From: Candidatus Sabulitectum sp.
GTDB taxonomy: Bacteria; Fermentibacterota; Fermentibacteria; Fermentibacterales; JCC-6
Assembly: GCA_029938555.1 (NCBI GenBank)
Contig: JAOZUR010000029.1
Span: forward strand, 1-34,819
Length of the DNA: 34,819 nucleotides
Direction of reading: 5' to 3'
Of this stretch, positions 423 through 30,460 are shown piece by piece; position 1 is the first letter of the stretch; every line of letters begins with the position of its first letter. The position numbers were made by a program, and so were the translations under genes. A model generated the notes under the pieces. That model did not search any database. It had not been told where the DNA came from and saw only the letters and a list, made by a program, of their open reading frames with translations.

Positions 423-2192
423 CTACTTCAAACTCTTTTCAATACCCTTAACAGCTCTAAGACCATCGGCTATTGCGGAGATTGCATCTCCCGCACCTGG
501 TGTTATGTCTCCACCGGCAAAGATGTTCTTGTAACCTGTGTACTGGTTATCGTTAACTATGATCCGGCCCCATTTAAGCTTCATTTCCTTCTGCATGCTT
601 TCAGGAATGAATTCAATGTCTGAGGTCTGACCAATTGCCGAGTAAAGAATGTCTGCTTCAATTACATGTTCAACATCATCCTTTGGTTTCGGAGAAGGTC
701 TGCCACCCTTAGGGTTAGGTACCATTTTAGCCTCAAAGTAGTAGTATTTAATTCCAGTTTTGGTTTTCTCAATTCTGATAGGAATTGTTTTAACTCTGAA
801 ATCAATATTTTCTTCAAGTGCTTCGTGGATTTCCTCATCATCTGCAGGCATGTCTTCAACACGCCTTCTGTAGGAAAGAATTACATCTGCCCCAAGCCTT
901 ACACAAGTTCTGGCAGCATCCATGGCAACATTTCCTCCGCCAACAACCACTATTGTTTTACCTTTGAGGCTTTCGCTATTTTCAGGCGATTTCATCAAAA
1001 GTTCAAAAGCGGGTTTAACTCCTGGAAGGTCTTCCCCTTCAATTCTCGCACTTGATGGTTTCTGAAGGCCTACGGCAAGGTAAACTGCATCAAATTTCTC
1101 TGAAAGCTCGCTGAGCAATTTTTGAGAAATAGTTTTGTTGTAGTGTAACTTTACTCCGGCTTCCTTAAACACTTCCATCTGTTTAGCTAAACCACTTTCT
1201 GGAAGTCTGTATTCAGGAATAGCTTTCCAGGCAACTCCTCCACCCTGTTCAAGTTTGTCGTAAACATGAACTTCATAACCCTTGCGGGAAAGGTAATAAG
1301 CTGCACTTAGACCGGACGGACCGGCACCCACAACAGCAACTTTTTTACCATTTGGTTTACCTGGTTTTGATTCTGCTTCAAGAACCTCAGAAAGAGATTC
1401 AAACTGCTCGCAGGCAAATCTTTTGAGCCATCTAATTGCAATGGCTTCACCCTGATAACCCATGGCGCATACTGTTTCACATTCACGGGTACAAACTTTT
1501 CCACACATTTCAGGAAGTGGATTGTTGTCGTAGAACAATTTTACAGCGTCAACGAATCTACCTTCAGCAATTGCCTTCAAGTAATCGGGAATATGCATGT
1601 GAGCAGGGCATGCACTTATGCACAAACCACACTCAATACATCTGGATGCTTCATCCATTGCCTGCTGAACAGTATAACCCTTAACAACTTCATCAAAATT
1701 CTTGATTCGTTGTTCAGGTGTTTCAATTGTCATTTCTTCTCTTGGAGAACCTGCCCATCCAAGAACTTCATTATCTTGTTTGAAGCCTTTTTCATTACCA
1801 TCCCATGGTTTTTTGTCAATTCCAGGGGTATAACGGCAAGTGTTTGGATCTTCAGTAACCCAGCTGTATTCATTTGAAAGACTTAAAGAGCCTGTTGAGC
1901 AAACATCAATACAGAGACCGCACCAGCAGCACCGACCGTAATCAACAGTAGGCCTGAGGCCGGAATCACCCTTTGATGTTTCAACTGTGTCTTGCTTTGT
2001 CATATCAATTGCTTTGTTTTCACAAATAACAGCACAACTGCCACAACCAATACACTTGTCTGAATCATTCTTATGAAAACCCCTGTACCGATCTGCACCG
2101 GGATTAGGCTGAGTTGGATATGGGATTGTATCTACTTTTTTAGCTGCCCTGGACCAGGCCAGGAATGGTGAAATTACATCTGTGAATTTCAT
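423..2192 (-). CDS. MbxN/NuoI-like ferredoxin subunit fused to an NfnB/GltD-like NADPH oxidoreductase
   Basis: This 589-residue protein joins two modules normally encoded separately. Residues 1-110 form a two-cluster ferredoxin of the NuoI/MbhN type, with C47-C50-C53-C57 and C88-C91-C94-C98 in Cx2Cx2Cx3C spacing. Residues 155-589 form an NfnB/GltD-type flavoprotein: a second Fe-S region starting at C185-C188-C191-C195, a C-rich motif (MCGKVCTRECETVC), an FAD Rossmann motif VVGAGPSGLSAA near 290, and an NADPH motif VVGGGNVAMDAA near 425 followed by YRRR, which fits the 2'-phosphate. A C-terminal FAD motif (IFAGGD) is present. The start is the ATG at 2192, preceded by AGGTAGG. An ATG upstream at 2225 lies inside mbxL and is less likely. 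The gene is last in the operon, 8 nt after mbxL. Inference: it supplies or withdraws electrons as NADPH at the peripheral arm of the membrane complex. The domain calls are firm; the direction of electron flow is not visible. Confidence 0.9.
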   Translation of the reverse strand: MKFTDVISPFLAWSRAAKKVDTIPYPTQPNPGADRYRGFHKNDSDKCIGCGSCAVICENKAIDMTKQDTVETSKGDSGLRPTVDYGRCCWCGLCIDVCSTGSLSLSNEYSWVTEDPNTCRYTPGIDKKPWDGNEKGFKQDNEVLGWAGSPREEMTIETPEQRIKNFDEVVKGYTVQQAMDEASRCIECGLCISACPAHMHIPDYLKAIAEGRFVDAVKLFYDNNPLPEMCGKVCTRECETVCAMGYQGEAIAIRWLKRFACEQFESLSEVLEAESKPGKPNGKKVAVVGAGPSGLSAAYYLSRKGYEVHVYDKLEQGGGVAWKAIPEYRLPESGLAKQMEVFKEAGVKLHYNKTISQKLLSELSEKFDAVYLAVGLQKPSSARIEGEDLPGVKPAFELLMKSPENSESLKGKTIVVVGGGNVAMDAARTCVRLGADVILSYRRRVEDMPADDEEIHEALEENIDFRVKTIPIRIEKTKTGIKYYYFEAKMVPNPKGGRPSPKPKDDVEHVIEADILYSAIGQTSDIEFIPESMQKEMKLKWGRIIVNDNQYTGYKNIFAGGDITPGAGDAISAIADGLRAVKGIEKSLK

Positions 2193-2200
2193 ATTAATTC

Positions 2201-3334
2201 CTACCTTTCTATTTCTGGCGGACATGTGGTAAGACTTACCATGATGTTGGAAACATCTGCGATATTTGCACCCACAAGCATTCTTTCAAGCAGCGGAACT
2301 GCATGAACATACGAAGGACCTCTAACATGTATTCTTCTTGGTGTTAAAGAACCGTCACTTACCACATAATAACCATACTCACCACGGGATGATTCCACTC
2401 TGGTGTATACTTCACCTGCTGGAACCCGCCATGTGGTAAGGTTGGGTAATTTCGTGGCAACCGGACCATTCTTGGGCATTTTCTTCAGTATCTGTCTGAT
2501 TAAAGACATGCTCTGGCTAATTTCTCTTCTTCTTACCATTGCTCTTGCGAAGATGTCATTTCCAGTTTCTGTAACTACATCAAACTCAAGCTGATTGTAA
2601 ACCTCGTAAGGGGCATCTTTTCGAAGATCACGGGTGGAACCACTGGCTCTAGCCACAGGGCCCACAAGACCGTACTCTTCAATCCATTCAGGTTTTACAA
2701 TTCCAACACCCTGTGTACGAAGTTTGAAAATTGCATTGTTTAGTACAAGGCGATCGAGCTCTGGAAGCCTTTCTTCTATCTTCTTCAGAACAGCTTCAAC
2801 TCTTCCCTCAAACCCTTCAGGCAAGTCGCGTCTAACACCACCAGGCTGAATAAATATATGATAGATTCTTGCACCGGTAAGTTCTTCAAAAAGGTCAAGA
2901 ACAAAATCGCGGAAGGTGATTCCCCACATGCCAGCAGTATGCAGGCCAAGTGTACCTGACTGGCCTCCAAAGGCCATAAGATTCACTGCAAATCTTGCCA
3001 GTTCAAGAACAAGAGTTCTAATCCATTTTGCTTTTTCAGGAACTTCAATACCTGCAAGCTCTTCAATTGCCATAGCGTAACATTCTTCATTTATGTCTGG
3101 TTCAGGCACGCAAATTCTACACACAAGGGGGAAGTTCTGAATCCAGAGTCTTTTCTCCATTAGCTTTTCAAAAGCTCTGTGCAGATAACCTACATGAGTA
3201 ATTGCCTTTGTAACCTGATCACCATCAAACCACATTTCAATACTCATGTTTCCTGTAACACCAGGGTGCTGAGGACCGAAGTACAGGTGTGTGGTTTTTT
3301 TCGGGTCTGTTGCGGGATCAATAACTGCACCCAT
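2201..3334 (-). CDS. mbxL: MbxL/NuoD-like large subunit with a degenerate NiFe site
   Basis: The 377-residue protein belongs to the NiFe-hydrogenase large subunit / complex I 49-kDa family. Motifs include FGPQHPG near residue 19, HVGYLHRAFEKL near 47 and GLVGPVARASG in the middle. The N-terminal Cys pair is present (C72-x2-C75 in CRIC, with another Cys at C85). Where a hydrogenase ends with CxxC, this protein reads TTCPPEIER, keeping one Cys (C371) and losing the other. It therefore should not hold a NiFe centre, as in the Mbx/Mbs branch. The start is the ATG at 3334, which overlaps the mbxK stop by one base (TAATG) and has GGAGG 7-8 nt upstream. An in-frame ATG at 3376 lies inside mbxK and lacks that support. 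The protein sits in the cytoplasmic arm between MbxJ and the quinone-site-like region. Confidence 0.88.
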   Translation of the reverse strand: MGAVIDPATDPKKTTHLYFGPQHPGVTGNMSIEMWFDGDQVTKAITHVGYLHRAFEKLMEKRLWIQNFPLVCRICVPEPDINEECYAMAIEELAGIEVPEKAKWIRTLVLELARFAVNLMAFGGQSGTLGLHTAGMWGITFRDFVLDLFEELTGARIYHIFIQPGGVRRDLPEGFEGRVEAVLKKIEERLPELDRLVLNNAIFKLRTQGVGIVKPEWIEEYGLVGPVARASGSTRDLRKDAPYEVYNQLEFDVVTETGNDIFARAMVRRREISQSMSLIRQILKKMPKNGPVATKLPNLTTWRVPAGEVYTRVESSRGEYGYYVVSDGSLTPRRIHVRGPSYVHAVPLLERMLVGANIADVSNIMVSLTTCPPEIER

Positions 3335-3897
3335 TACTTTTCCTCCTTCCGTTTTTGCCCCATAGGGGTGTTCCATTCGCCGACCATGTCGCCGATATAC
3401 TGCCTTGGATCAAGGTGCTCACGGGGCTGCCTCTCACCATATAGTTTCATGGAATATTCTTCTGTAAGGAAATCTCTTCTCATTGGTGGTATATCTTTCC
3501 AGCCTTCAAGAAGGAAATCTTCTCCTTCTCGTGGGTTACCTGGGAAACTTATTCCAAACATCTCGAATATCTCACGCTCAAAGGCACTTGCAGCTGGCCA
3601 GATATCACTTAGGGACGGCACAATACAGTTTTCTCTTGGATACCTAGCACTGATAAGAAGAGTAGTTTCATTGTTGTAGTTTTCCAAAATCCAAGTCATT
3701 TGAAACAAATTCTCTTCCATCCTGTCAACACTGCTTATCAGCTGAAGAGTTTTAAAACCAAGACTGGTTTTCGCCATAAGAATAGCGTCCATAGCTGAAG
3801 CTTTTTCTACCTCCACGTGAAGATAGTTATGCATTTCTCTAACCAGCTTCAATAAGGGGAAACGGATTTCCAGCTCTTTTTTTGTTTTGTCAATCAT
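3334..3897 (-). CDS. mbxK: MbxK/NuoC-like subunit
   Basis: A 187-residue soluble protein with the complex I 30-kDa (NuoC) signature near residues 100-120: WPAASAFEREIFEMFGI, then FPGNP and the MRRDF motif. It carries no cofactor; in this family it links the large subunit to the rest of the cytoplasmic arm. The ATG at 3897 follows a GGGGTG ribosome binding site, 11 nt after the mbxJ stop. The C-terminus is charged (GQKRKEEK), and its stop overlaps the next start, so translation of mbxL is probably coupled. Length and order match the hydrogenase-like MbxJ-K-L arrangement. In true complex I, C and D are often fused; here they are separate. Confidence 0.88.
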   Translation of the reverse strand: MIDKTKKELEIRFPLLKLVREMHNYLHVEVEKASAMDAILMAKTSLGFKTLQLISSVDRMEENLFQMTWILENYNNETTLLISARYPRENCIVPSLSDIWPAASAFEREIFEMFGISFPGNPREGEDFLLEGWKDIPPMRRDFLTEEYSMKLYGERQPREHLDPRQYIGDMVGEWNTPMGQKRKEEK

Positions 3898-3908
3898 ATT
3901 TTCACCCC

Positions 3909-4472
3909 TTACCAGTTGTAATCAGGAAGATCCCAATCAGTGATGATCTTCTTCTGGTTTTCCCGGTAATAATCCAGGTTTTCCTTGTAATGTTTCCATC
4001 CCTGTGCCCTGCCATCTTTGATCTTCTGCATTAGAAGACTAAAACCATCAATGACAGCTTCAGGTCTAGGCATGCATCCCATTACATAAACATCCACCGG
4101 CAGGTACTTATCAAGTACATTCAGTGTGTTGTATGAATCAAAATACATTCCTCCATTTATGGTGCAGGAACCAAGGGCTATGATATACTTAGGATCCTGA
4201 ATTTGCTCATAAACCCTGATAACTCTTTTTAAGGTTTTAGTGGCAAGATACCCTGATATTATCAAAACATCCGCCTGCCTTGGTGTAGGTCGCATGGCAA
4301 TTCCAAAACGCTCCATATCAAATCGTGAAGTGCCAAGTGGTCGAAGCTCAATTGCACCACACCCGGTACCGTAAGCTGTTACCCAAAGGCTATTTGCCCT
4401 GGCCATATTATTGATTTTTTCTAACATTCCTTTTTTTACCCCGGGCTTTTCCGGGCGCTGATTGCAATACAT
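3909..4472 (-). CDS. mbxJ: MbxJ/NuoB-like Fe-S small subunit
   Basis: This 187-residue protein is the NuoB / hydrogenase small-subunit homologue that carries the terminal N2-type 4Fe-4S cluster. GTGCGAIE (C38, E42), GSCTINGG (C103) and MGCMPRPE (C133) are visible. Complex I has a tandem CC at the first motif and hydrogenases have CxxC; here the second position is Gly (CG), so only three of the usual four Cys ligands are apparent. The start is the ATG at 4472, preceded by AGGAGG at a 5-nt spacing; a GTG just before it is too close to the ribosome binding site. The gene is 9 nt downstream of mbxM. It would pass electrons between MbxN and the MbxL site. The family assignment is firm. Confidence 0.88.
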   Translation of the reverse strand: MYCNQRPEKPGVKKGMLEKINNMARANSLWVTAYGTGCGAIELRPLGTSRFDMERFGIAMRPTPRQADVLIISGYLATKTLKRVIRVYEQIQDPKYIIALGSCTINGGMYFDSYNTLNVLDKYLPVDVYVMGCMPRPEAVIDGFSLLMQKIKDGRAQGWKHYKENLDYYRENQKKIITDWDLPDYNW

Positions 4473-4481
4473 CACAACCTC

Positions 4482-5381
4482 CTAAAGCATCACGCGGATA
4501 AGATCCACGAGGGCAAGAGATGTTGGAACAAACCAGAGAAATCTAATGCTCTGTTCTGTTCTGAATCTTGGGAATACCGAACTAACAACAACTGGATACA
4601 TGTAAAGAAGGAAAGTTTTTACTAAAAGACTAATCCAATTTGAAGCGCCACCGAACAGCAGACTTACAAAAAGAATCAATTTTGCAGTCCCAAAAAGAGC
4701 TCTGCCACTGAACATAAACGAAAGGAACCTACTGCTGTACTCTGTTGGAGGTCCAATAGGGATTTCCTGAGGAGCCAGCACAATGCCAAACGGATATGCC
4801 ATCTGCATTGGAAGGAATGCTATAAGCGCTCCTGCTGATGCAAATGGGAATCGGAAAATATTCCAACTTAGTATCCCCGCCTGCTGAGCTTCTACAATGC
4901 CTTCTATTCTGAAAGTTTTTAGTCCCACTGCAATTGCCACAACGGCAATAGAGAAAGACAATTCATAAGAAGACATCTGAGCAAGACCACGGCTTACAGC
5001 AATCACTGCATAAGGATGACCGGAGTTACCGGCACCAAGAGCCATTCCAAGGCAGCCAAAAAACATGATGTAAATCACCAGGAAAATATCACCGGCAAAA
5101 GACATGTTGTAGGTGATACTGTTTCCAATAACCAATGGAACCATGAGCAATACACAGATAGCTCCTGTGATTCGGAACATTGGAGCCATCCAGAACATTC
5201 CTCCATGATGAATAGAGGATGTTTTTTTGAACAGCTTCCACATATCGATGAAGTTCTGAGTCACACGAGGACCCATTCTTCCATGAATTCTTGCAGTAAC
5301 AGTTCTGGAGATACCGCCTAGCAGCAATCCCCATGATAACGCTCCAAGAATTGTCAGCACAATAGAGACGATGTTACCCAT
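4482..5381 (-). CDS. mbxM: MbxM/NuoH-like membrane anchor subunit
   Basis: A 299-residue hydrophobic protein with about eight membrane segments, homologous to NuoH/MbhM/EchB. The family motif after the first helix is clear (GRMGPRVTQNFIDMWKLFKK), and the acidic helix residue (SSYELSFSIAVV) and the C-terminal FPRFRTEQSIRFLWF are present. This subunit docks the cytoplasmic redox arm on the membrane and starts the chain of polar residues that carries ions to the antiporter subunits. The ATG at 5381 lies 2 nt after the preceding stop; GGAGG sits inside the end of that gene, 9 nt upstream. Confidence 0.9.
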   Translation of the reverse strand: MGNIVSIVLTILGALSWGLLLGGISRTVTARIHGRMGPRVTQNFIDMWKLFKKTSSIHHGGMFWMAPMFRITGAICVLLMVPLVIGNSITYNMSFAGDIFLVIYIMFFGCLGMALGAGNSGHPYAVIAVSRGLAQMSSYELSFSIAVVAIAVGLKTFRIEGIVEAQQAGILSWNIFRFPFASAGALIAFLPMQMAYPFGIVLAPQEIPIGPPTEYSSRFLSFMFSGRALFGTAKLILFVSLLFGGASNWISLLVKTFLLYMYPVVVSSVFPRFRTEQSIRFLWFVPTSLALVDLIRVML

Positions 5382-5383
5382 AG

Positions 5384-8302
5384 TTACATCCCTCCGTTCA
5401 GGAATACGAAAAGAAGCAGGAGGAAAATTAGAGAGTGAGCAAGATATGTTCTACCATCACCGGTGAACAAAGCACGCACACCATCCCCCAGCATATTAAA
5501 TGTTTTGTTTACACCTGAGAAAATTTTCTGAGCATGAATTTTCGGCAAAAAGCTAAGTGCCCTCTGATAAGGTCTGAAGAAGTTGTTAGAGTAATGCACT
5601 TCATCTGCCGAAGGAGGCATCTCACCTGCAAAACCGATATCAAGCTGCCCAACATACTTGGGCTTGTGGCCTGATATCCAGTAGAATACAAAAGCAAATC
5701 CAAAGAGACCCATAACCATCAGCCCAACCATCCAGGCGTTCCATGTTCCCATGGTGGTTAAAACCATATCTCCCTGAATAACAGGAGCCAAACCGGATAA
5801 GCCAATCTTTTCAAGCACTGGAACCAAGAAGTTAAGAAGAATAGTTGGTTTAAAACCTAGAACCATTATCGCCATGGCCAGAAGAGCCTGAGGAATTAAT
5901 AATGGAAGAGGCGCTTCCTTGGCATGAGCATTCTTGGGAGAAAGCTGACCGAGGAAAACTCCGTGAAGAAGTCTGAATGAGTAAAGAAATGCAACAACAG
6001 AAGCAAACATTCCAACTATCAATACAGGCAACCAGCCCTGTTCAATCAGACCGTTGTAAAGAAGCCACTTGCTTCCAAATCCTGCAAGAGGAGGAATACT
6101 TGCAAACGAAATCACGGAAATAAGCGTGAAAGCGAATGTCCATGGCATTTTTTTAACCAATCCACCTAAGTTGTTAAACTCTGTTGTTCCTGTTCTGTAC
6201 AGAACACCTGCTGCACCTAGGAACAAAGCCATCTTGAAGATAAGATGATGAATTGTATGATAAATAGCTGCAGTCCAGCCAAGAATACTGGCCAAACCAA
6301 GACCCATAAGAATGTAACCCAATTGTGAAACACTGGCGTGAGCAAGCATTTTTTTGTAATCAGGTGCAAGAGCTGCAAGAATCGCCCCACCAAGAGCGGT
6401 AAGTGCACCAATCCAGGCAATTACCCTGCCCCATGGCAAAGAAGCTGAAGATGAATTAACCGCAACAGCCACCAACAGAAGTACAGCTGCTTTGGAAGAG
6501 GTTCCCGACAAGAATGCCGGCAAAGTACCAGGTGCTGCAGGGTATGTGCGTACATTCCACAGATGAGTTCCAAATTGACCCATTTTTACCAAAGCTGCAA
6601 TTGTTATTAAAACCGCTGGCACTCCGGCCATGGCAAAACTTCCTTTGGAGAGAAGTATTCCACCAAGAAGGAGATAACCGGAAAGTGAAGCAAACACTGC
6701 ATACCAGAAAGTTCCTTTTGAAGCAGCAGTACCTTTGCTAACACCAATAACTGCTGCGAACGCAGATATTTCCCATAACAGATAAAATGTTAAACCATTA
6801 CCTGCAGCAGGAAGAATAGTTAGTGCCGCACCAGAGATAAGAAGCCAGAACCAGTAGCTTTTTTCGCGACCTATTCTGTTAAATACACCAGGCAGACAAA
6901 GAAGCGTTCCAATTGCAAACAGCCCATGGAAAATATTTCTAAGACCTGCTGATTCAATAATCGAGCCTGAGAAATCAAGTGCCCCCCATGACATGCGTGT
7001 TATCCATACACTTGCAAGAAGCATAAGCAGAACAGCTGCAACTGCTGAAGGCCGTTTTGCGGATTTCTCTCCGGTTTTTTCAGACCTGGCACTCCAGAAC
7101 CGGAACAGGTAAACTGCTTCCAGCAACAGGCCAGCAAGAACTGCATAAAAAATCACAGGGAATCCTGAAGCCAAATGAGCTAAGAAAGCAAATTTTGCCC
7201 AGAAAATCGGCAGTGGTGGAATTCCAGCGAGAAGAAGTATTGGAACAAGGAAAAGCAAGGTTCCAAAACCGCTCCACTGATCTTTTTTCTCTGGATTTCC
7301 AAGCATGAACAGACTAAATTTCGCTATTGATGAAAATATCATCAATACAATAACGGTCTGGGTATAAAACGCACCTGTTGTTGTGCCTGCTGCAACAAGA
7401 AGCAATGAAGCATAAGCAGAGGTGGAGTAACCCATAATTCTACCAGAACTTGATGCCCGAAGGCCAGCAAGCTGGCTGAATACAAGACCGGCAGCGCCAA
7501 TCCATGCGTAAATAATCGGATTACCTATAGGAAGAAGTGGAAGTACTTTAGCTGCCCAAAGAAGGACTGCAAGACTCCATGTTGCACTGTAAAGACCTGC
7601 AACAATTGAACTAGTTCCCTGATAGAAATCAAGCCCCCACCCAGTAAGAGGGAATGCTTTAATTTCTGTTACAATCACTGTGAGTAAAAGAATTGCTACA
7701 ATAACAGCTGACGCCCCTGAAACATTACCAAGAGCTGCAAGGGTAAGCATTCCTGTTGAGCGGTACAAAACAGCCACAGCAAGAAGATATAGTATTGTTA
7801 CAAGACCAGAAACCAGAGCTGCCTTTATTGCAGCTTCCCATCTGCTACCACACTTACAGGCAGCGGTCAGGCCAATTGTTACAATTGATCCGATTTCCAG
7901 AAAAACAAATGAGTTAAAAATATCAGTTGCAAACAGCAAACCAAGAGATGCTGTAAGAAGTGCAAGAATTAGCGGTTGACTCTTTGGAGTAGTCAGTGCA
8001 AATCTATGCAGTGAAAAAATTGTAGCAGCATACATTACTATTGCTGCAAGTGTGCCACCGGCGGTTATCTCCAGATTGATACTCAAAGGAGGAGATCCAA
8101 CACCTGTGGAAAGAATAACCGAGTCAGAAAGATCTCGAAGATTCCATGCACCCAATTGGATTGATAACATAATAACAGCAATCAAACCGGCAGTAAGCAT
8201 CAGATAGCTCACAACCCGGGATGCTTTGGGGCTTTTTCCAGGAAGCCATGCATTAATAAAGGCCCCTAGAAGCGGCAGGAAAATAGCTAGTGCTTTTACC
8301 AT
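5384..8302 (-). CDS. Fused double MrpD/NuoN-like antiporter subunit (MbxH-MbxH')
   Basis: This 972-residue, very hydrophobic protein is about twice the length of one antiporter-like subunit. The first half (about 1-440) has a Lys in the TM7 motif (IKAFPLTGWGLDF), but the usual His and Pro around it are altered. The second half (about 450-880) keeps a better MrpD-like pattern: VKMGQFGTHLW, then DYKKMLAHASVSQLGYI. The C-terminal 90 residues include a polar stretch and a last helix, resembling the lateral-helix extension of NuoL/MbxH'. Separate mbxH and mbxH' genes occur in the archaeal Mbx cluster; here they are one polypeptide with no stop or frameshift. It overlaps mbxG by 7 nt. Two antiporter-like units per complex suggest two ion channels per redox event. 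Whether Na+ or H+ moves cannot be told from this. Confidence 0.87.
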   Translation of the reverse strand: MVKALAIFLPLLGAFINAWLPGKSPKASRVVSYLMLTAGLIAVIMLSIQLGAWNLRDLSDSVILSTGVGSPPLSINLEITAGGTLAAIVMYAATIFSLHRFALTTPKSQPLILALLTASLGLLFATDIFNSFVFLEIGSIVTIGLTAACKCGSRWEAAIKAALVSGLVTILYLLAVAVLYRSTGMLTLAALGNVSGASAVIVAILLLTVIVTEIKAFPLTGWGLDFYQGTSSIVAGLYSATWSLAVLLWAAKVLPLLPIGNPIIYAWIGAAGLVFSQLAGLRASSSGRIMGYSTSAYASLLLVAAGTTTGAFYTQTVIVLMIFSSIAKFSLFMLGNPEKKDQWSGFGTLLFLVPILLLAGIPPLPIFWAKFAFLAHLASGFPVIFYAVLAGLLLEAVYLFRFWSARSEKTGEKSAKRPSAVAAVLLMLLASVWITRMSWGALDFSGSIIESAGLRNIFHGLFAIGTLLCLPGVFNRIGREKSYWFWLLISGAALTILPAAGNGLTFYLLWEISAFAAVIGVSKGTAASKGTFWYAVFASLSGYLLLGGILLSKGSFAMAGVPAVLITIAALVKMGQFGTHLWNVRTYPAAPGTLPAFLSGTSSKAAVLLLVAVAVNSSSASLPWGRVIAWIGALTALGGAILAALAPDYKKMLAHASVSQLGYILMGLGLASILGWTAAIYHTIHHLIFKMALFLGAAGVLYRTGTTEFNNLGGLVKKMPWTFAFTLISVISFASIPPLAGFGSKWLLYNGLIEQGWLPVLIVGMFASVVAFLYSFRLLHGVFLGQLSPKNAHAKEAPLPLLIPQALLAMAIMVLGFKPTILLNFLVPVLEKIGLSGLAPVIQGDMVLTTMGTWNAWMVGLMVMGLFGFAFVFYWISGHKPKYVGQLDIGFAGEMPPSADEVHYSNNFFRPYQRALSFLPKIHAQKIFSGVNKTFNMLGDGVRALFTGDGRTYLAHSLIFLLLLFVFLNGGM

Positions 8303-8652
8303 CTCAGCTCCTTCATTCTTCTAACATCGGCAGAGCCGGATTTGCGTGAAGCAAGAACACCAACCACCACAAAAAGAGCAGCAACAGCCACGCCAATCAC
8401 AATAGAGGTTAGCACAAGTGCTTGTGGAAGAGGATCAACCATAGAGGTAACAGATGCGTCTACAATGGGGGCTGAACGATTTGGCAAGAATCCGCTCCAT
8501 ACAAGAATCAGATTTACTCCAGTATCAGCAAGAGTAAATGCAAGAGCGATTCTAAGTATATTTTTTCTTGTGAGAACTCCCCATAAACCAATAAGTACAA
8601 GACCGGCAGCTGTCACAACAAGCGACCAATAAAATAGCGACTGAGCTGTCAT
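8296..8652 (-). CDS. mbxG: MrpC/NuoK-like subunit (MbxG)
   Basis: A 118-residue membrane protein with three helices, homologous to MnhC/MrpC and NuoK. The family pattern LIGLWGVLTRKNILR with LADTGVNLILV follows helix 1, and DPLPQALVLTSIVIG occurs near residue 75, where the DPLPQALVLTAIVI motif is typical of Mrp/Mbh proteins. It overlaps the preceding gene by 4 nt (ATGA) and the next gene by 7 nt, implying translational coupling. It forms part of the ion-translocating membrane domain. Confidence 0.9.
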   Translation of the reverse strand: MTAQSLFYWSLVVTAAGLVLIGLWGVLTRKNILRIALAFTLADTGVNLILVWSGFLPNRSAPIVDASVTSMVDPLPQALVLTSIVIGVAVAALFVVVGVLASRKSGSADVRRMKELRW

Positions 8653-9338
8653 TTCTCACCTCCAGCTTTTCTATAGGAAGCAAACACTCCTGATAACTCA
8701 CTTGCAACTTTGGCACCTATAACCAGTGAAATCAATGGAATGATTCCTGCAGACAAGAGTTTTCCAGGTGAACCAACTGGAAGAACCTTATTGTTAAGGA
8801 ACTGTCCCAATGTCATCATTCCCCAGAAACCAAGTAAACCGAAAGTAAGCCCAGCAAGAGATTCAATTGATGCAAGTAGTCTTGACTGACCTGGAATAGT
8901 ATTACTTCCAAGCATTATCAGCAAGAAAGCTGATGCCACAACCGCTCCTCCTGGAAAACCACCACCAGGGCTAAGATGTCCATGAGAGATTATGTAAATT
9001 CCGAAGAGCACAATAGCGCCAGGCAGTACGCCTGCTGTGAATGAAACAATCGAGCTTGACGGTGTGGGATTTGCTCCCATTGGAATCAGAGTAAGAATCA
9101 ATACTACTGCAGTGGAAGCACTGAATAGTACTACTACCTCGCCTAAAGTATCAAGTCCACGATATGCAACAACAACTGCTGTAACCAAGTTCACTGAACC
9201 AGTATCATCAACACCCCGTTGTGTGTAATTATGCCCGGTACTTCCTAATTCTAGAGGAACGGAATAATTGGAAAGTGACGAAACCACTATAGCTCCAAGA
9301 GCTAAAACAATAATCAGCCCTACATAAGTGCGAATCAT
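8649..9338 (-). CDS. Fused MbhE-MbhF (MnhB-like) membrane subunit
   Basis: This 229-residue protein contains two Mrp/Mbh modules. Residues 1-90 match MbhE: a first helix, then a short loop (GVDDTGSVNLVTAVVVAYR) and GLDTLGEVVVLFSA. Residues 95-229 match MbhF/MnhB: ISHGHLSPGGGFPGGAVVASAF is the hallmark. The genes are separate in many Mbh operons, while in Mrp operons the E part belongs to MnhA. The ATG at 9338 overlaps the mbxD stop by 4 nt and follows GGAGGAGA. The protein is part of the antiporter block that exchanges Na+ for H+ in relatives. Confidence 0.85.
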   Translation of the reverse strand: MIRTYVGLIIVLALGAIVVSSLSNYSVPLELGSTGHNYTQRGVDDTGSVNLVTAVVVAYRGLDTLGEVVVLFSASTAVVLILTLIPMGANPTPSSSIVSFTAGVLPGAIVLFGIYIISHGHLSPGGGFPGGAVVASAFLLIMLGSNTIPGQSRLLASIESLAGLTFGLLGFWGMMTLGQFLNNKVLPVGSPGKLLSAGIIPLISLVIGAKVASELSGVFASYRKAGGEK

Positions 9339-9586
9339 TCTTCTCCTCCAATCTTTCCTCTACCCCAGAGAAAGATCACAGTAGAAATAGCAGCGCCAAT
9401 GCTTGCTTCGGTAATTGCCACATCTGGAGCATCCATTAACAAAAACAAAACAGAAGCTGAAAGACTGACAAAAGCAACAATGATTATTGCAGAAATCAGT
9501 TTTCTTACCACAAGAGCTGCAACAGCTGCAACAAGCATCATCACACCTATCCCAATGGATGCGGCTGCAAGAAGAGACATGTTCAC
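9335..9586 (-). CDS. mbxD: MbhD/DUF4040-like subunit (MbxD)
   Basis: An 83-residue membrane protein with three predicted helices. The motif MDAPDVAITEASIGAAI near residue 50 is the DUF4040/MbhD signature, corresponding to part of MnhA. I keep the GTG start at 9586, which overlaps the mbxC stop by 4 nt (GTGA) and has AAGGTGG about 6 nt upstream. An ATG two codons later is the alternative. It belongs to the Mrp-like membrane block. Confidence 0.85.
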   Translation of the reverse strand: MNMSLLAAASIGIGVMMLVAAVAALVVRKLISAIIIVAFVSLSASVLFLLMDAPDVAITEASIGAAISTVIFLWGRGKIGGEE

Positions 9587-9918
9587 TTGTCACCACCTTT
9601 GTTGTCTGCAAGATCATCGATGATCAGATTGTCAGGTTTCTCGGAAGCATCATTGTGTGCTGCACGAGCTAAAGCGTGGCTTGAGACTGGGTTTGTAAGT
9701 ACTATAAAAAGCACAACAAGAAGCAACTTTGGCATCCATGTTGGTTCAAAAAGACCTATTCCTAAAAGGAAAAGTATTGAACCAAGGGTGGTTGCCTTTG
9801 TTCCTGCATGCATTTTGTTAAAAACATCAGGCATTCTGAAAACACCAAGGCCACTTGCAAACAAAACAAGAGCGCCAAGCCCTGTGAATACATGAGCAAG
9901 AATATCTAAAAAACTCAT
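9583..9918 (-). CDS. mbxC: MrpG-like subunit (MbxC)
   Basis: A 111-residue, three-helix protein of the MnhG/MrpG family. GLGVFRMPDVFNKMHAGTKA (about residues 23-42) and LTNPVSSHALARAAH (about 79-93) are family hallmarks. The soluble tail after residue 95 is charged. It overlaps the mbxB stop by 4 nt and the next gene by 4 nt. In Mrp and Mbh complexes the E, F and G subunits form a helical bundle at the Na+-exchanging end. Confidence 0.9.
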   Translation of the reverse strand: MSFLDILAHVFTGLGALVLFASGLGVFRMPDVFNKMHAGTKATTLGSILFLLGIGLFEPTWMPKLLLVVLFIVLTNPVSSHALARAAHNDASEKPDNLIIDDLADNKGGDK

Positions 9919-10202
9919 TTCAACCCCCCATCCAGGTATCTTGCAATTGCAAGAACGCCAAGGAAAGAAAGAACAGAATAAACCAAAGCCACATCAAGCA
10001 GCATTGATCTACCCTGAAGAAATGCAACAAGAACTAAAAAACCGGTTGTGATCAAGGTAGTAGTGTCCAGAGCAACAGCTCTATCTGTGGTTTTTTCGCC
10101 AATGATCAGGCGAAGAAACGCAAGAAATAACCCTCCACCGACCAACGCAAAAATAATGATCAGAAATGTGTTACTCAAAGATTTTCTCCAATCTTCCGGC
10201 AA
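9915..10202 (-). CDS. mbxB: MrpF-like subunit (MbxB)
   Basis: A 95-residue, three-helix protein of the MnhF/MrpF family. GEKTTDRAVALDTTT near residue 35 matches the conserved DR-x-x-ALD motif. The assigned start overlaps the end of mbxA by 32 nt, the largest overlap in the operon; no shorter start would leave a full first helix. It acts with MbxA and MbxC. Confidence 0.88.
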   Translation of the reverse strand: MPEDWRKSLSNTFLIIIFALVGGGLFLAFLRLIIGEKTTDRAVALDTTTLITTGFLVLVAFLQGRSMLLDVALVYSVLSFLGVLAIARYLDGGLK

Positions 10203-10668
10203 AACTATCTACCATAATCTGAGTTTCAGCATGTACATCACCTGCTGGCAGAAATACCCAGTGAACAAAAATTTCATCTTTGATAATATCGATGGTGATT
10301 GTTCCTGGTGTCAGGGTAATGGAATTCGCCAGTATCGCTTTGGCTCGCTCGCTTTTAAGAGTAAGTTTTGCCTTTACAATCCCTGGTTTAATAGGAATAA
10401 CTGGTCTGAATATCCGAAAAAATACATCAATATTAGCTTTTACCATTTGTCCAAGAAAGAAAAAGACATAACCAATAGTGGCTAAAAACTTTGCTGGAGT
10501 TAAGAGACGAAATAAGTTTCCAGTTAATGCTCCGTGGGTAGCAACCGCTGTAATTAGACTTACTACAAATCCTAGAACAATTTCCTGAATATCAGTACTT
10601 AGCGTAAGACTGAGCCAGATCCCGAATAAAACAACCGTAGTTGATACAACCGCCGGTTTTCTTTTCAT
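10171..10668 (-). CDS. mbxA: MrpE-like subunit (MbxA)
   Basis: A 165-residue protein of the MnhE/MrpE family: two or three N-terminal helices, then a cytoplasmic domain with the typical LANSITLTPGTITIDI and the EIFVHWV strand (about residues 112-140). It is the first structural gene of the membrane complex. Its ATG overlaps the stop of rex by one base (TGATG), which argues that rex and mbx are one transcript. Kept with MbxB and MbxC, it completes the Na+/H+ antiporter module. Confidence 0.9.
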   Translation of the reverse strand: MKRKPAVVSTTVVLFGIWLSLTLSTDIQEIVLGFVVSLITAVATHGALTGNLFRLLTPAKFLATIGYVFFFLGQMVKANIDVFFRIFRPVIPIKPGIVKAKLTLKSERAKAILANSITLTPGTITIDIIKDEIFVHWVFLPAGDVHAETQIMVDSFAGRLEKIFE

Positions 10669-11306
10669 CAGTTCACGCGCTCCTTCCTTCTTATTGAATG
10701 TGTTAGAACATCTAGTTCTGTTGATACTTCTACATACCTTACTTCTACATTTTCAGGGGCTCGAAGTGGTTCAAGAGTGAAACTTAAAATAGCTTTACAC
10801 CCTGCTTGTACAAGATTTTCAAGGGCTTGCTGACCGGCTCCACCAGTAACAGCAATTACTGCTATAATTTCATTGTTCACTTCAAGTACATTTTTGATTT
10901 CATCTGTGGATTGAATTATTTTTTCTCCACATTTTTTTCCGATTTTAGCAGGGTCATTGTCAAATATTGAATCGTATATGTAACCTCCAGTTCCATCTAA
11001 ACCAGAGTCCATCAAAGCACAACCGATGCTTCCTGCACCAACAATGATTACAGGTGGTGGATTTGTCGTGCCAAGAATATCTTCTATATTAACCAGCAGA
11101 TCATTAACGTTATAACCGGAACCCTGCTTGCCAAACTCGCCGTAAATAGACAAATCTCGTCTAACAGCAGCAGAGGAAATACCACAATTTGTAGCAAGCT
11201 GCTGTGATGTCATTATCAACTCACCTCTAAGTTTTGCCAGTCGGAGGCACCGAGCATAATGGCTTAATCTCCTGATAGATTTTTCTGAAACTTTTACTGC
11301 AATCAT
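10668..11306 (-). CDS. rex: Redox-sensing transcriptional repressor Rex
   Basis: The 212-residue protein has a winged helix (about 1-85: SEKSIRRLSHYARCLRLAK, then SSAAVRRDLSIYGEFGKQG, the DNA-binding pattern) and a Rossmann domain starting with IIVGAGSIGCALMD. Rex dimers bind NAD+ and NADH competitively, and NADH releases them from DNA. The start is the ATG at 11306, giving the family's usual length; the frame continues upstream over the promoter but that part is not Rex-like. A GAGG lies about 7 nt upstream. It is the first gene of the mbx operon and its own promoter carries candidate Rex sites, which implies autoregulation and induction of mbx when NADH rises. The identification is firm; the regulatory target set is inferred. 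Confidence 0.93.
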   Translation of the reverse strand: MIAVKVSEKSIRRLSHYARCLRLAKLRGELIMTSQQLATNCGISSAAVRRDLSIYGEFGKQGSGYNVNDLLVNIEDILGTTNPPPVIIVGAGSIGCALMDSGLDGTGGYIYDSIFDNDPAKIGKKCGEKIIQSTDEIKNVLEVNNEIIAVIAVTGGAGQQALENLVQAGCKAILSFTLEPLRAPENVEVRYVEVSTELDVLTHSIRRKERVN

Positions 11307-11321
11307 AGAAAACCTCGTTTT

Positions 11322-11349
11322 TATTGTGATTGTACAAACTATCACAATA
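11322..11349. promoter_or_regulatory. Inverted-repeat operator over the rex promoter (candidate Rex sites)
   Basis: TATTGTGAT (11322-11330) and ATCACAATA (11341-11349) are a perfect 9-bp inverted repeat separated by 10 nt. An overlapping 18-bp window, TTGTACAAACTATCACAA (11330-11347), has the TTGT-N10-ACAA outline of the Rex consensus, with one half-site 6/7 and the other 5/7 matched to TTGTGAA-N4-TTCACAA. The repeat covers the -10 and the transcription start, where bound Rex would block initiation. Confidence 0.6.
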
Positions 11350-16493: not shown

Positions 16494-16566
16494 ACCTCTC
16501 AGAGGATTAGAATAATTCCAACAGGGAAAATAATGAGTCCGCTTTTTTCACAGAAAGGTTTTGCAT

Positions 16567-18906
16567 ATGCCACCACTTAGCCATGCTAATGTCGTCAACC
16601 CAGGTACTCCTGAATGGAAAATTATTCTAAAACTTCTCAGCGAAACAGATCCTGAGTTGTTAAGCCGCCTGAGCAGAAAAATGCTGAATTACCTTTTCAG
16701 AAGAAAAATAGCAAAAATTTCTGAAATAATGGAAGAGTTACTTCCCAAGCAGGTTGATACAGTGGAAACAGGTGATATGTACGGAGAGAATCAACCAGCA
16801 CCAAGAATGGACTACAACATTCTAGAGGACATAACCAAGCAGGTTTTCAGAGTTGCTGAAGAAGTTCTATCTCCAAATGAAATTACCATGGCTCTTTACC
16901 GATGGTTGCGATACGAAAAAATTAGATTTCTTTCTGTGACAGCAGGTAGAAGAGATGTTCCTTTAGGGAAACTACGAGAAGCTCTGGATAAATATGAAAT
17001 GCTTCCCAAAAGAAACAAAAAAATGGAATCCAGAGATAGAGAAAACATTATTGTTGGCCTCACAAGAAGACTTTTCACAGACGATCTCAATTACATAAGT
17101 ACCATTAGAAAACATGTGACTATAGATGATTTTGCGAATGTTGTTAATCACATGATAGGTCCATACAATGGCAATGGCAAAGTGGGTGGAAAAGCAGCAG
17201 GTCTTTTCCGTGCGGAAAAAATACTAAACACCTACAAGAAATCCCATACTGTATTGCGCAATCTAAAAGTACCAAAGACTTGGTTCATCTCCTCCGATTC
17301 CGTCCTTGAGTTCATCAGCCATAATGCGCTGGAAGAAATGATGGCAATAAAATATGCCCGACAGGAAGAAATTCAGCAAGAGTATCATCTTCTTGAGCAG
17401 GTATTTAAACACTCTATAATGCCATACAGTGTTTTGGCAGGATTAGAACATGCGCTTGATTACTTTGGAACAACCCCATTAGTAGTAAGATCCTCAAGCC
17501 TTCTAGAAGATAGCACCGGTGCTGCTTTTGCAGGAAAATACAAAAGCCTGTTTGTTGCGAACCAAGGTTCCAGACAACACAGATTAGACGCGCTGGTTGA
17601 TGCTGTACTTGAAATTTATGCAAGCATATTTGGACCAGACCCTATAGAATACAGAAGAGAAAGAGGGCTGCTGGATTTTAATGAAGAGATGGGTATTCTT
17701 ATACAAGAGGTTGTTGGGTCAAAAATAGGAAAATACTTTTTCCCTCCTTTTGCAGGTGTTGCATTCAGTAGAAACGATTATCGCTGGTCCCCAAGAATTA
17801 AATCAGAAGATGGTATTGTTAGACTGGTTGCAGGACTTGGAACAAGAGCAGTTGATAGAACCGGTCAGGATTTCCCTGTTCTAATGAGTCCTGGTCAGCC
17901 CAAACTTCGAATAAATGCCTCTACCGAGGAATTGATAAGATATGCTCAAAAAAACATGGATGTTGTAAACCTGGAAAAAGGATGCTTAGAAACAGTGAGC
18001 ACTGAAAAAATGATTAGGGAATATGGGTCAAAAGTTCCATGTCTCCCGTATCTTGTATCACTGTATGAAGAAGGAACTATTCAACTATCACCTGGGTCAA
18101 TGTTGAATATCCAAAAGAAAGATACAATAATAACCTTTCACAATCTTCTTGAACGAAGTCCTGTTCCACTGTTTTTTAAAACTGTATTAAACATTCTTGA
18201 AGATGAGATAGGTCTACCTGTAGATATTGAATTTGCTTACGGTCATGATATACACACCCCGTACCTGCTTCAATGTAGACCTCAAAGCGTAGGCAAGGGT
18301 AATGTTGATGTGACTATTCCCAGCAATATTCCCAATGATACTGTAATGTTCTCTGCAAATAAATACATCATGTCAGGCGCATGCCATAACATAGATTACA
18401 TGGTCTATGTGGATGGAACGGCATATGATGAAGTAGAAAGTCGAGAAAAACTACTTGAAATTGGTCATATCATTGGCAAGCTGAACAAGCTTCTTCCTCA
18501 GAAAAAATTCATTTTGATCGGGCCAGGTCGATGGGGAAGTAAGGGTGACATAAAACTTGGTGTTCATGTGGGTTACAGTGATATAAACAACACAGCCATG
18601 CTCATAGAAGTTGCAAAAATGAAAAAAGGACAGATTCCTGACTTGTCTTTTGGAACACATTTTTTCCAGGATCTGGTAGAGGCAGATATAAGGTACTTGC
18701 CGTTGTATCCTGATAATGATGGGGTTGTTTTCAGAGAAGATGTTTTCTTTAACAAAAAAAATCATTTAATTGATTTTATATCCAAGTCAAAAGGTTTTGA
18801 GCACATTATTAAAGTAATTAAAGTGACTGATATTCAAGAAGATGCATCTCTCTCTGTAATTCTAAATAGTGACGTAGATGAAGCAGTTGCGTTTCTGAAA
18901 AAGTAA
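16567..18906 (+). CDS. PpsA/PPDK-like ATP-grasp protein lacking swivel and PEP domains
   Basis: This 779-residue soluble protein has the pyruvate-phosphate dikinase / PEP synthase ATP-binding domain: GGKAAGLFRAEKIL near 207, the triphosphate-loop-like VVRSSSLLEDSTGAAFAG near 305, and the closing motif LLQCRPQS near 567. In PpsA and PPDK a swivelling His domain and a PEP/pyruvate barrel follow; neither is present. Instead, residues 590-779 form a domain I do not recognise, with ILIGPGRWGS near 651 and FGTHFFQDL near 700. The first 200 residues are helical and charged and also unrecognised. The start is the ATG at 16567, with AAGG 8 nt upstream; TTG two codons earlier is possible. The same ATP-grasp plus C-terminal pair recurs in the protein at 20603. 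It cannot perform the PEP synthase reaction alone. Possible roles are ATP-dependent phosphotransfer to a partner or allosteric sensing; neither is shown. Confidence 0.8.
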   Translation: MPPLSHANVVNPGTPEWKIILKLLSETDPELLSRLSRKMLNYLFRRKIAKISEIMEELLPKQVDTVETGDMYGENQPAPRMDYNILEDITKQVFRVAEEVLSPNEITMALYRWLRYEKIRFLSVTAGRRDVPLGKLREALDKYEMLPKRNKKMESRDRENIIVGLTRRLFTDDLNYISTIRKHVTIDDFANVVNHMIGPYNGNGKVGGKAAGLFRAEKILNTYKKSHTVLRNLKVPKTWFISSDSVLEFISHNALEEMMAIKYARQEEIQQEYHLLEQVFKHSIMPYSVLAGLEHALDYFGTTPLVVRSSSLLEDSTGAAFAGKYKSLFVANQGSRQHRLDALVDAVLEIYASIFGPDPIEYRRERGLLDFNEEMGILIQEVVGSKIGKYFFPPFAGVAFSRNDYRWSPRIKSEDGIVRLVAGLGTRAVDRTGQDFPVLMSPGQPKLRINASTEELIRYAQKNMDVVNLEKGCLETVSTEKMIREYGSKVPCLPYLVSLYEEGTIQLSPGSMLNIQKKDTIITFHNLLERSPVPLFFKTVLNILEDEIGLPVDIEFAYGHDIHTPYLLQCRPQSVGKGNVDVTIPSNIPNDTVMFSANKYIMSGACHNIDYMVYVDGTAYDEVESREKLLEIGHIIGKLNKLLPQKKFILIGPGRWGSKGDIKLGVHVGYSDINNTAMLIEVAKMKKGQIPDLSFGTHFFQDLVEADIRYLPLYPDNDGVVFREDVFFNKKNHLIDFISKSKGFEHIIKVIKVTDIQEDASLSVILNSDVDEAVAFLKK

Positions 18907-28111: not shown

Positions 28112-28639
28112 GTGGCAATTTTGAAGGGAGTGATGAAAACGGCAGCTAAAAAGGAAAATTTCAACTACAGGCTCTGGAAATATGACGGAGCACCTGGCGA
28201 ACTGATTCCACTGCTACAATCTGCTCAGGAGCATTTTGGATACATCCCAAGACGAGCTATTACTTACATATCAGGTGTTACCACAATTCCTGAATCTGAT
28301 ATTTACGGCGTCATCACCTTTTACAGTCAGTTCCGACTTCAACCTATGGGCAAATTCGTAGTAAGAGCGTGTGCAGGAACAGCTTGTCATGTGTCTGGTG
28401 CAAAAGCGATCATCGGTACTATTGAAGATGAGCTCGGAATCGAAGTAGGAGACACTTCCGAAAATGGTCTCTTTACATTCCTGACAGTTGCCTGTATCGG
28501 CTGCTGTTCGCTCGCTCCTGTAATCATGGTAAACGACGACACACACGGCAGGCTAACTCCTGCTTCTCTGCGTAAAATACTGAAAGAGTATACAAGAAAA
28601 GGTAAAAAGATAGCTGAAAGCGCAGTTGGTAAATCCTGA
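28112..28639 (+). CDS. NuoE-like 2Fe-2S subunit (StnA/HydC type)
   Basis: A 175-residue thioredoxin-fold ferredoxin of the complex I 24-kDa family. The 2Fe-2S ligands C87-x4-C92 and C128-x3-C132 are present (RACAGTACH and CIGCC). Such subunits pair with a NuoF-like protein in bifurcating hydrogenases, formate dehydrogenases and transhydrogenases. I keep the GTG start at 28112, with GGGG 5 nt upstream; an ATG at 28133 has an AAGGGAG only 2 nt away, which is too close, but the ribosome could use it if the N-terminus is short. It precedes the NuoF-like gene by 33 nt. No hydrogenase gene follows in this window, so a role in hydrogen metabolism is not supported. Confidence 0.88.
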   Translation: MAILKGVMKTAAKKENFNYRLWKYDGAPGELIPLLQSAQEHFGYIPRRAITYISGVTTIPESDIYGVITFYSQFRLQPMGKFVVRACAGTACHVSGAKAIIGTIEDELGIEVGDTSENGLFTFLTVACIGCCSLAPVIMVNDDTHGRLTPASLRKILKEYTRKGKKIAESAVGKS

Positions 28640-28672
28640 TTATTTAAACAGTAATTTCCAGGGGGCTGATAG

Positions 28673-30454: not shown

Positions 30455-30460
30455 GCGGCA

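Follow-up and report, generated by a model that had tools for sequence, protein, structure and literature searches.

A NuoI-GltD fusion subunit in Mbx-type operons of Fermentibacterota and other bacteria suggests NAD(P)H as a direct partner of the pump

Introduction

Which electron carrier serves an Mbx-type ion pump whose N subunit is joined to an NADP(H)-binding flavin module? The question was raised by a contig of Candidatus Sabulitectum sp. (Fermentibacterota; GenBank assembly GCA_029938555.1, contig JAOZUR010000029.1), which is 34,819 nucleotides long and is called the window here. Bacterial Mbx pumps, that of Thermotoga maritima included, have been drawn as ferredoxin-driven sulfur reductases or possible hydrogenases (PMC9431562, PMC7414866). 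The first-pass annotation of the window described an Mbx subunit N, taken to be fed by ferredoxin, in one chain with a GltD/NfnB-type module. It proposed a complex, perhaps previously undescribed, that couples NADPH/ferredoxin electron transfer directly to ion pumping, an NADP counterpart of Rnf.

The fusion gene and its product

The fusion gene was located at positions 423 to 2192 of the minus strand, with the ATG at 2192 and the stop codon at 423-425. It encoded 589 amino acids in one uninterrupted frame, and TAGGAA, a plausible ribosome-binding site, lay a few bases 5' of the ATG. The stop codon of nuoD was found 8 bases upstream of this ATG, and the fusion was the last gene of a rex-mrpEFGB'BC-antiporter-nuoH-B-C-D operon. 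Domain matches divided the product into a NuoI/MbxN-type part with two [4Fe-4S] clusters and a GltD/NfnB-type 2x[4Fe-4S]-FAD-NADP(H) module. In Pfam, a single chain (600-residue reading) carried a 4Fe-4S dicluster domain at 57-112, Fer4_20 at 173-275 and Pyr_redox_2 at 294-588. In NCBIfam, NuoI/FpoI models covered residues 6-122 and GltD/NfnB models covered residues 149-589. The complete motif sets in one frame with no internal stop, as noticed at first reading, were confirmed by both libraries, the open reading frame and the ribosome-binding site.

The NuoI/MbxN-like part (residues 1-140; 1773-2192, minus strand) was delimited by domain and structure matches and by alignment. It carried Cys47/50/53/57 and Cys88/91/94/98. 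Domain matches and alignment likewise placed the N-terminal Fe-S domain of the GltD type (residues 150-275; 1368-1745, minus strand), which carried Cys185/188/191/195, Cys230/234/238/242 and, at the position of K170 in StnC (PMC10482914), Lys257. The FAD- and NADP(H)-binding domains (residues 280-589; 426-1355, minus strand) were recognised by domain matches and had a predicted fold like that of NfnL, GltD and StnC. A sequence motif marked the predicted NADP(H) site, VVGGGNVAMDAARTCVRLGADVILSYRRRVEDMPAD (840-947, minus strand). One chain held four [4Fe-4S] motifs and FAD, and all sixteen cluster cysteines were kept in the fusion proteins aligned.

In a search of solved structures, residues 7-112 matched chain N of Pyrococcus MBX (6u8y_N) better than every complex I chain. 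The best matches of residues ~150-589 were NfnL, GltD and StnC-type chains. An AlphaFold2 model (15 rows) was of moderate confidence (pLDDT 73.6), with poor values in the linker and in the first 35 residues. In Foldseek, the model aligned with NfnL and GltD across some 470 columns. Only three Fer4_20 proteins were found in the genome: the fusion, its paralogue and a StnC-like protein.

Occurrence of the fusion in other genomes

The first-pass annotation had suggested a search for NuoI and GltD-type domains in one chain beside mbx genes. Over 25 independent loci had such a chain next to nuoH-B-C-D. Because of this recurrence in relatives, a chance fusion was ruled out, as were a frameshift and an assembly error, the faults that the annotation itself had named as a danger. 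Sixty genomes were searched as relatives. Within the window's family, 18 of 36 genomes yielded a nuoD homologue, which was accompanied by the fusion. Among the genus and family relatives with the fusion, it lay directly 3' of the nuoD homologue wherever the contig reached. In a scan of named genomes, full-length fusions occurred in Cloacimonadota, Delongbacteria, Fermentibacteraceae, Bacteroidota, Spirochaetota, Thermotogales and Gammaproteobacteria, the last including the sulfur-oxidising Ca. Thiodiazotropha and Sedimenticola. On contigs that were long enough, the order was mrpEFGB'BC, antiporter(s), nuoH, nuoB, nuoC, nuoD and fusion. The fusion is conserved across seven phyla and its operon position is constant. 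The covalent joining of an N-type domain, beside an Mbx-type membrane arm, to a GltD/NfnB-type module with the NADP(H) motif YRRR was indeed conserved and operon-linked.

Some loci departed from the common form. At L018 (genome G011), the fusion gene and the nuoD homologue were both broken, by sequencing error or in a decayed copy. A spirochaete fusion (L061, 9977-12220) had an open frame of 748 amino acids, about 150 longer than the others. A rubrerythrin/ferritin-like gene was observed directly 3' of the fusion at L062 (11835-12404), L065 (11805-12308), L066 (11737-12240) and L069 (9444-9941). The hosts were Gammaproteobacteria and one Thermotogales genome (L069), in which this gene overlapped the fusion.

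The membrane arm and its catalytic chamber

The rest of the operon, all on the minus strand, was compared with known complexes. Its first gene encoded a Rex-type repressor (10668-11306, likely start ATG 11306). It was followed by MrpE/MbxA (10171-10668), MrpF/MbxB (9915-10202), MrpG/MbxC (9583-9918), an MbhD-like subunit (9335-9586), an MrpB/MbxE-like subunit (MbhE and MnhB in Pfam; 8649-9338) and MrpC/MbxG (Pfam; 8296-8652). An Mrp-type Na+ module was therefore part of the operon, as in MBX/MBS. Two antiporter-like subunits were found in one 972-residue chain (5384-8302). Its N half resembled 6u8y MBX chain H and its C half chain X, so both halves matched MBX chains, as an H and H' type pair. 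NuoH/MbxM (4482-5381) was assigned by Pfam and chain comparison, NuoB/MbxJ (3909-4475) by comparison with MBS (PMC7684303), NuoC/MbxK (3334-3897) by Pfam and NCBIfam, and NuoD/MbxL (2201-3376) by profile and structure-chain comparison.

A palindrome, TTGTGATAGTTTGTACAATCACAA (11324-11347), was located 5' of rex as a candidate Rex operator. A scan for Rex sites with one mismatch was by itself at chance level. Palindromes resembling Rex operators were also found upstream of rex in three relatives (L039, L041 and L022). This suggests that the operon may be autoregulated by NADH/NAD+ through Rex.

In the case of NuoD, the match to Pyrococcus MBX/MBS (6u8y) gave 361 bits, compared with 235 for complex I and 132 for hydrogenase. 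The corresponding values were 225, 143 and 106 bits for NuoB and 114, 50 and 54 bits for NuoH. By these scores, Pyrococcus MBX/MBS is the nearest match of the core, well ahead of complex I or hydrogenase. The proximal [4Fe-4S] cluster of the polysulfide-reducing MBS has three cysteine ligands, MbsJ C28, C93 and C123 (PMC7684303). NuoB of the window had the same ligand set, C39, C104 and C134, which was kept in relatives. In its GTGCG motif, Gly stood at the position of MbsJ C25. NuoD had C86-R-I-C89-VPEPD, with RICVPEPD as in MBS, and C385-PPEIER. C89 and C385 were the equivalents of MbsL C85 and C385. Because the three-cysteine cluster and C89/C385 were kept and the quinone residues were absent, the catalytic chamber was assigned to the MBS type and not to that of complex I or hydrogenase.

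These residues also bore on two other readings. The whole complex resembles complex I, and could be an NAD(P)H:quinone oxidoreductase with another input module. However, His38 and Tyr87 of Nqo4 were replaced by Thr41 and Val90 in NuoD, and the position next to C39 in NuoB was Gly40, so that the adjacent cysteine pair of complex I was missing. This made the reading very improbable. An NADPH-driven membrane-bound hydrogenase of the Mbh type would agree with cysteines at three of the four [NiFe] positions of NuoD (C86, C89 and C385). However, the fourth ligand was Glu388, the extra cysteine C86 was not conserved in relatives, and the similarity to Mbh was the lowest for NuoD and NuoB, which left this reading barely credible. 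The quinone reductase and [NiFe] hydrogenase readings were rejected on the NuoD and NuoB residues.

The complex of the window shared with Pyrococcus furiosus MBX/MBS (6u8y, PMC7684303) the Mrp module, the two antiporter-like subunits, the NuoH/B/C/D-type arm, the three-cysteine cluster, and the RICVPEPD and CPP motifs. In contrast, the antiporter subunits of P. furiosus are separate chains, and its N subunit is a separate, ferredoxin-oxidising protein of 208 residues with neither a flavin nor an NAD(P)H module. No such separate MbxN was present here, since the N-domain was fused to the GltD-type module.

The flavin module and its two coenzyme classes

Lys257 occupied the fourth-ligand position of the FAD-proximal cluster, where NfnB has Glu. 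This position was Lys in every fusion protein aligned, and the lone exception was a non-fused NfnB-like sequence. In StnC, K170 accompanies a flavin that does not bifurcate and that hands electrons from NADPH on to Fe-S clusters (PMC10482914). By analogy, we infer that the fused flavin would be non-bifurcating and StnC-like. Electron bifurcation at this flavin was disfavoured by Lys257. StnC of the NfnABC transhydrogenase (8oh5, 9bov, PMC10482914) is likewise a GltD-type NADPH plug-in that feeds Fe-S clusters and has Lys at the ligand position. However, it works in a soluble bifurcating complex on NuoEFG-like parts, with no membrane arm. NfnB/NfnL (4ylf, 5jca) shares the fold of the C-terminal module and the YRR NADPH motif, whereas it has Glu in place of Lys257 and pairs with NfnA in a soluble bifurcating enzyme. 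Pfam found no NfnA domain in the fusion, and an NfnA partner with an NAD site and a [2Fe-2S] cluster, the mark of Nfn, was lacking.

The fused modules fell into two classes. The class of the window had the motif GGGNVAMD...LGAxVxxSYRRRxEDMPAD. The other class had GGGNVAMD...RLQ...TxLE, with Glu in place of the second Arg. In Rossmann folds, Arg residues bind the 2'-phosphate, and Glu at this place favours NAD. The YRR motif points to NADPH specificity of the window class, and the Glu class is probably NADH-specific. A single branch with 100/100 support divided the two classes. When NfnB-type outgroups were included, the flavin-domain tree kept the fused modules together except that of Delongbacteria, which fell outside the other YRR proteins with weak placement.

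A coenzyme split that followed the whole complex was ruled out, as the NuoD tree mixed the classes. The mixing was seen in the Cloacimonadota and Delongbacteria rows, with the truncated loci L018 and L019 disregarded. When the Cloacimonadota locus L056 was compared with an other-class complex from Fermentibacterota, the identity was 77% for NuoD and 79% for the NuoI domain but 40% for the FAD/NAD(P) domain. This contrast suggested either that the coenzyme module was swapped within the fused gene or that the domain diverged very fast. From the sequences, a swap inside the fused protein seems to have occurred.

Both coenzyme classes were encoded in the genome of the window. Its second Mbx operon, of the other class, was noticed at locus L034 (9573-11366; genome G000, contig C118), where the contig ended within nuoC. 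The Cloacimonadota loci L055 and L056 were mosaic, with a NuoI part near the Fermentibacterota Glu class and an FAD/NADP part of the YRR class.

Electron path and acceptor

We give about an even chance to the following explanation. The complex would be a bacterial Mbx/MBS-type pump in which MbxN forms the foot of an attached NAD(P)H dehydrogenase, and the transfer of electrons from NADPH to sulfane sulfur, or to an acceptor of similar potential, would drive ion pumping. NADPH would reduce the FAD of the fused module. Electrons would leave the FAD singly, first along the pair of [4Fe-4S] clusters in the GltD part and then along the pair in the NuoI part, and would arrive at the proximal cluster of NuoB with its three cysteines. 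The NuoB/NuoD/NuoH chamber would be the place where polysulfide, S0 or an acceptor of similar potential is reduced, and this reaction would drive ion movement by both antiporter-like domains and by the Mrp Na+/H+ module. We infer the path, the sulfur-type acceptor and the direction. Counted in favour were the MBX-like core and antiporter halves, the MBS-type three-cysteine cluster, RICVPEPD and the missing quinone residues of NuoD, the four [4Fe-4S] motifs and FAD in one chain, Lys257, YRRR, the co-occurrence of NuoD with the fusion, the NADP-specific glutamate dehydrogenase of the window and the S0 response of T. maritima.

Several points were counted against this explanation. By textbook potentials, the step from NADPH to polysulfide yields about 0.1 V. 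Because so little energy is released, few ions would be moved per turnover. The scanned genes adjoining the Mbx operons included no sulfur gene, and one member of Fermentibacteria was reported to have no sulfhydrogenase genes (PMC5763382). The moderate confidence of the fusion model was also counted. Ferredoxin may still dock, which was a further point against. The feeding of the N-domain by ferredoxin, as first claimed, is nevertheless an assumption. The flavin module replaces the 208-residue MbxN from about residue 120 onwards, so NAD(P)H may have taken the place of ferredoxin as carrier.

A ferredoxin:NADP+ oxidoreductase pump, with electrons passing from ferredoxin along the Fe-S chain to NADP+ or in reverse, was considered rather unlikely. 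It would span a bigger energy gap, and Pyrococcus MBX takes ferredoxin electrons at this arm (PMC7684303). An earlier reading of Mbx as a ferredoxin:NADP+ oxidoreductase is also cited in PMC6349859. However, electrons would bypass the NuoB/NuoD/NuoH coupling chamber unless ferredoxin binds there, and the chamber keeps MBS-type residues. The genome also has a separate Rnf, as judged from one NQR2/RnfD/RnfE-type gene match. Rnf is a functional analogue as a redox-driven ion pump, but its subunits are unrelated to those of this complex, and Pfam and NCBIfam found no RnfABCDGE subunit in the operon. Of the direct NADPH/ferredoxin coupling first proposed, the fusion and the Mbx arm held, whereas the bypass of the chamber and the separate Rnf match spoke against the Rnf-like scheme. 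Because this family couples at the NuoB/NuoD chamber, NADPH oxidation with a polysulfide-like acceptor fits better.

A pump with two donors was regarded as doubtful. Here ferredoxin would dock on the N-domain, NADPH would feed its electrons into the same chain of clusters by way of the fused module, and both would drain to the chamber acceptor, balancing both pools. Neither of the two [4Fe-4S] clusters of MbxN is missing from the N-domain, and surface docking may persist. However, the loss of the rest of MbxN to the flavin module stood against this scheme, as did Lys257, which argues against a bifurcating flavin.

Returning to the explanation with NAD(P)H and a sulfane-type acceptor, we noted that a cysteine-complete NAD(P)H module was fused to the pump in seven phyla at a constant place in the operon, which suggests that NAD(P)H is its direct partner. 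A wider proposal is put forward tentatively, at somewhat less than even confidence. Bacteria would have evolved, independently of NuoEFG, a second NAD(P)H route to a complex I-like pump by joining a GltD-type dehydrogenase to MbxN. This route would have an NADPH form and an NADH form, with flavin modules exchanged inside the fused protein. Many anaerobes would have an NAD(P)H:polysulfide pump, and the Mbx of T. maritima would then be driven by NAD(P)H and not by ferredoxin. Reverse operation, from sulfide to NAD+, is a suggestion for the sulfur-oxidising symbionts. If NAD(P)H is the direct partner, models of ATP yield and redox balance in these fermenters would change. As a second and simpler point of entry for NAD(P)H on a scaffold of the complex I kind, the fused design would be useful for the study of modular complex I assembly. 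Since both coenzyme classes occur in a single genome, the choice between NADH and NADPH can be put to a direct test.

Thermotoga maritima and the existing family model

The fusion was compared with NF010590 (PRK13984, 'putative oxidoreductase'), a profile of 611 positions. Residues 4-588 aligned with positions 9-606 at 580.8 bits, below the curated equivalog cut-off of 946 bits. A Thermotogales member scored 986 bits. The T. maritima match also lay above the cut-off, and this was the sole control genome with a match at E<=1e-100. The window protein resembles the T. maritima protein in being a NuoI-GltD fusion along its whole length, but differs in its NADP motif and in its score (581 against the cut-off of 946 bits). 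Since NF010590 already models the fusion end to end and T. maritima matches it above the cut-off, the architecture is not new, and the suggestion of an undescribed complex could not be upheld in this respect. No description of the fused subunit was found in the literature searched under several names, although earlier Mbx/MBS and Fermentibacter papers may discuss it. Its function appears to be undescribed in that literature.

In a Thermotogales relative (L069), the fusion was the next gene after nuoD and belonged to the Glu class, which probably uses NADH. The last gene of the T. maritima mbx unit is presumably annotated as a glutamate synthase subunit. The published unit of 13 genes is induced by S0, with mbxA up 4.4-fold, and was modelled with ferredoxin as the donor (PMC9431562). 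Because the fused design occurs in many phyla, T. maritima included, it is probable that a pump so far regarded as ferredoxin-driven gives electrons to NAD(P)H or takes them from it.

Metabolic setting

One gene in the window matched NADP-specific glutamate dehydrogenase at 739 bits, above the cut-off of 536. NuoE-, NuoF- and GltD-NuoG-like genes were consecutive at 28112-34126 of the plus strand, as in the electron-bifurcating transhydrogenase StnABC/NfnABC. With this set and the glutamate dehydrogenase in the window, the oxidation of glutamate could plausibly supply the pump with NADPH. In the third protein of the set (1221 residues), the Lys of StnC K170 was present by eye. The genome also encoded FeFe hydrogenases and a soluble NiFe hydrogenase. 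A PPDK_N (phosphoenolpyruvate synthase-like) domain was the one assigned part of two large proteins, at 16561-18906 and 20603-23584 of the plus strand, that adjoined two glutamate dehydrogenases.
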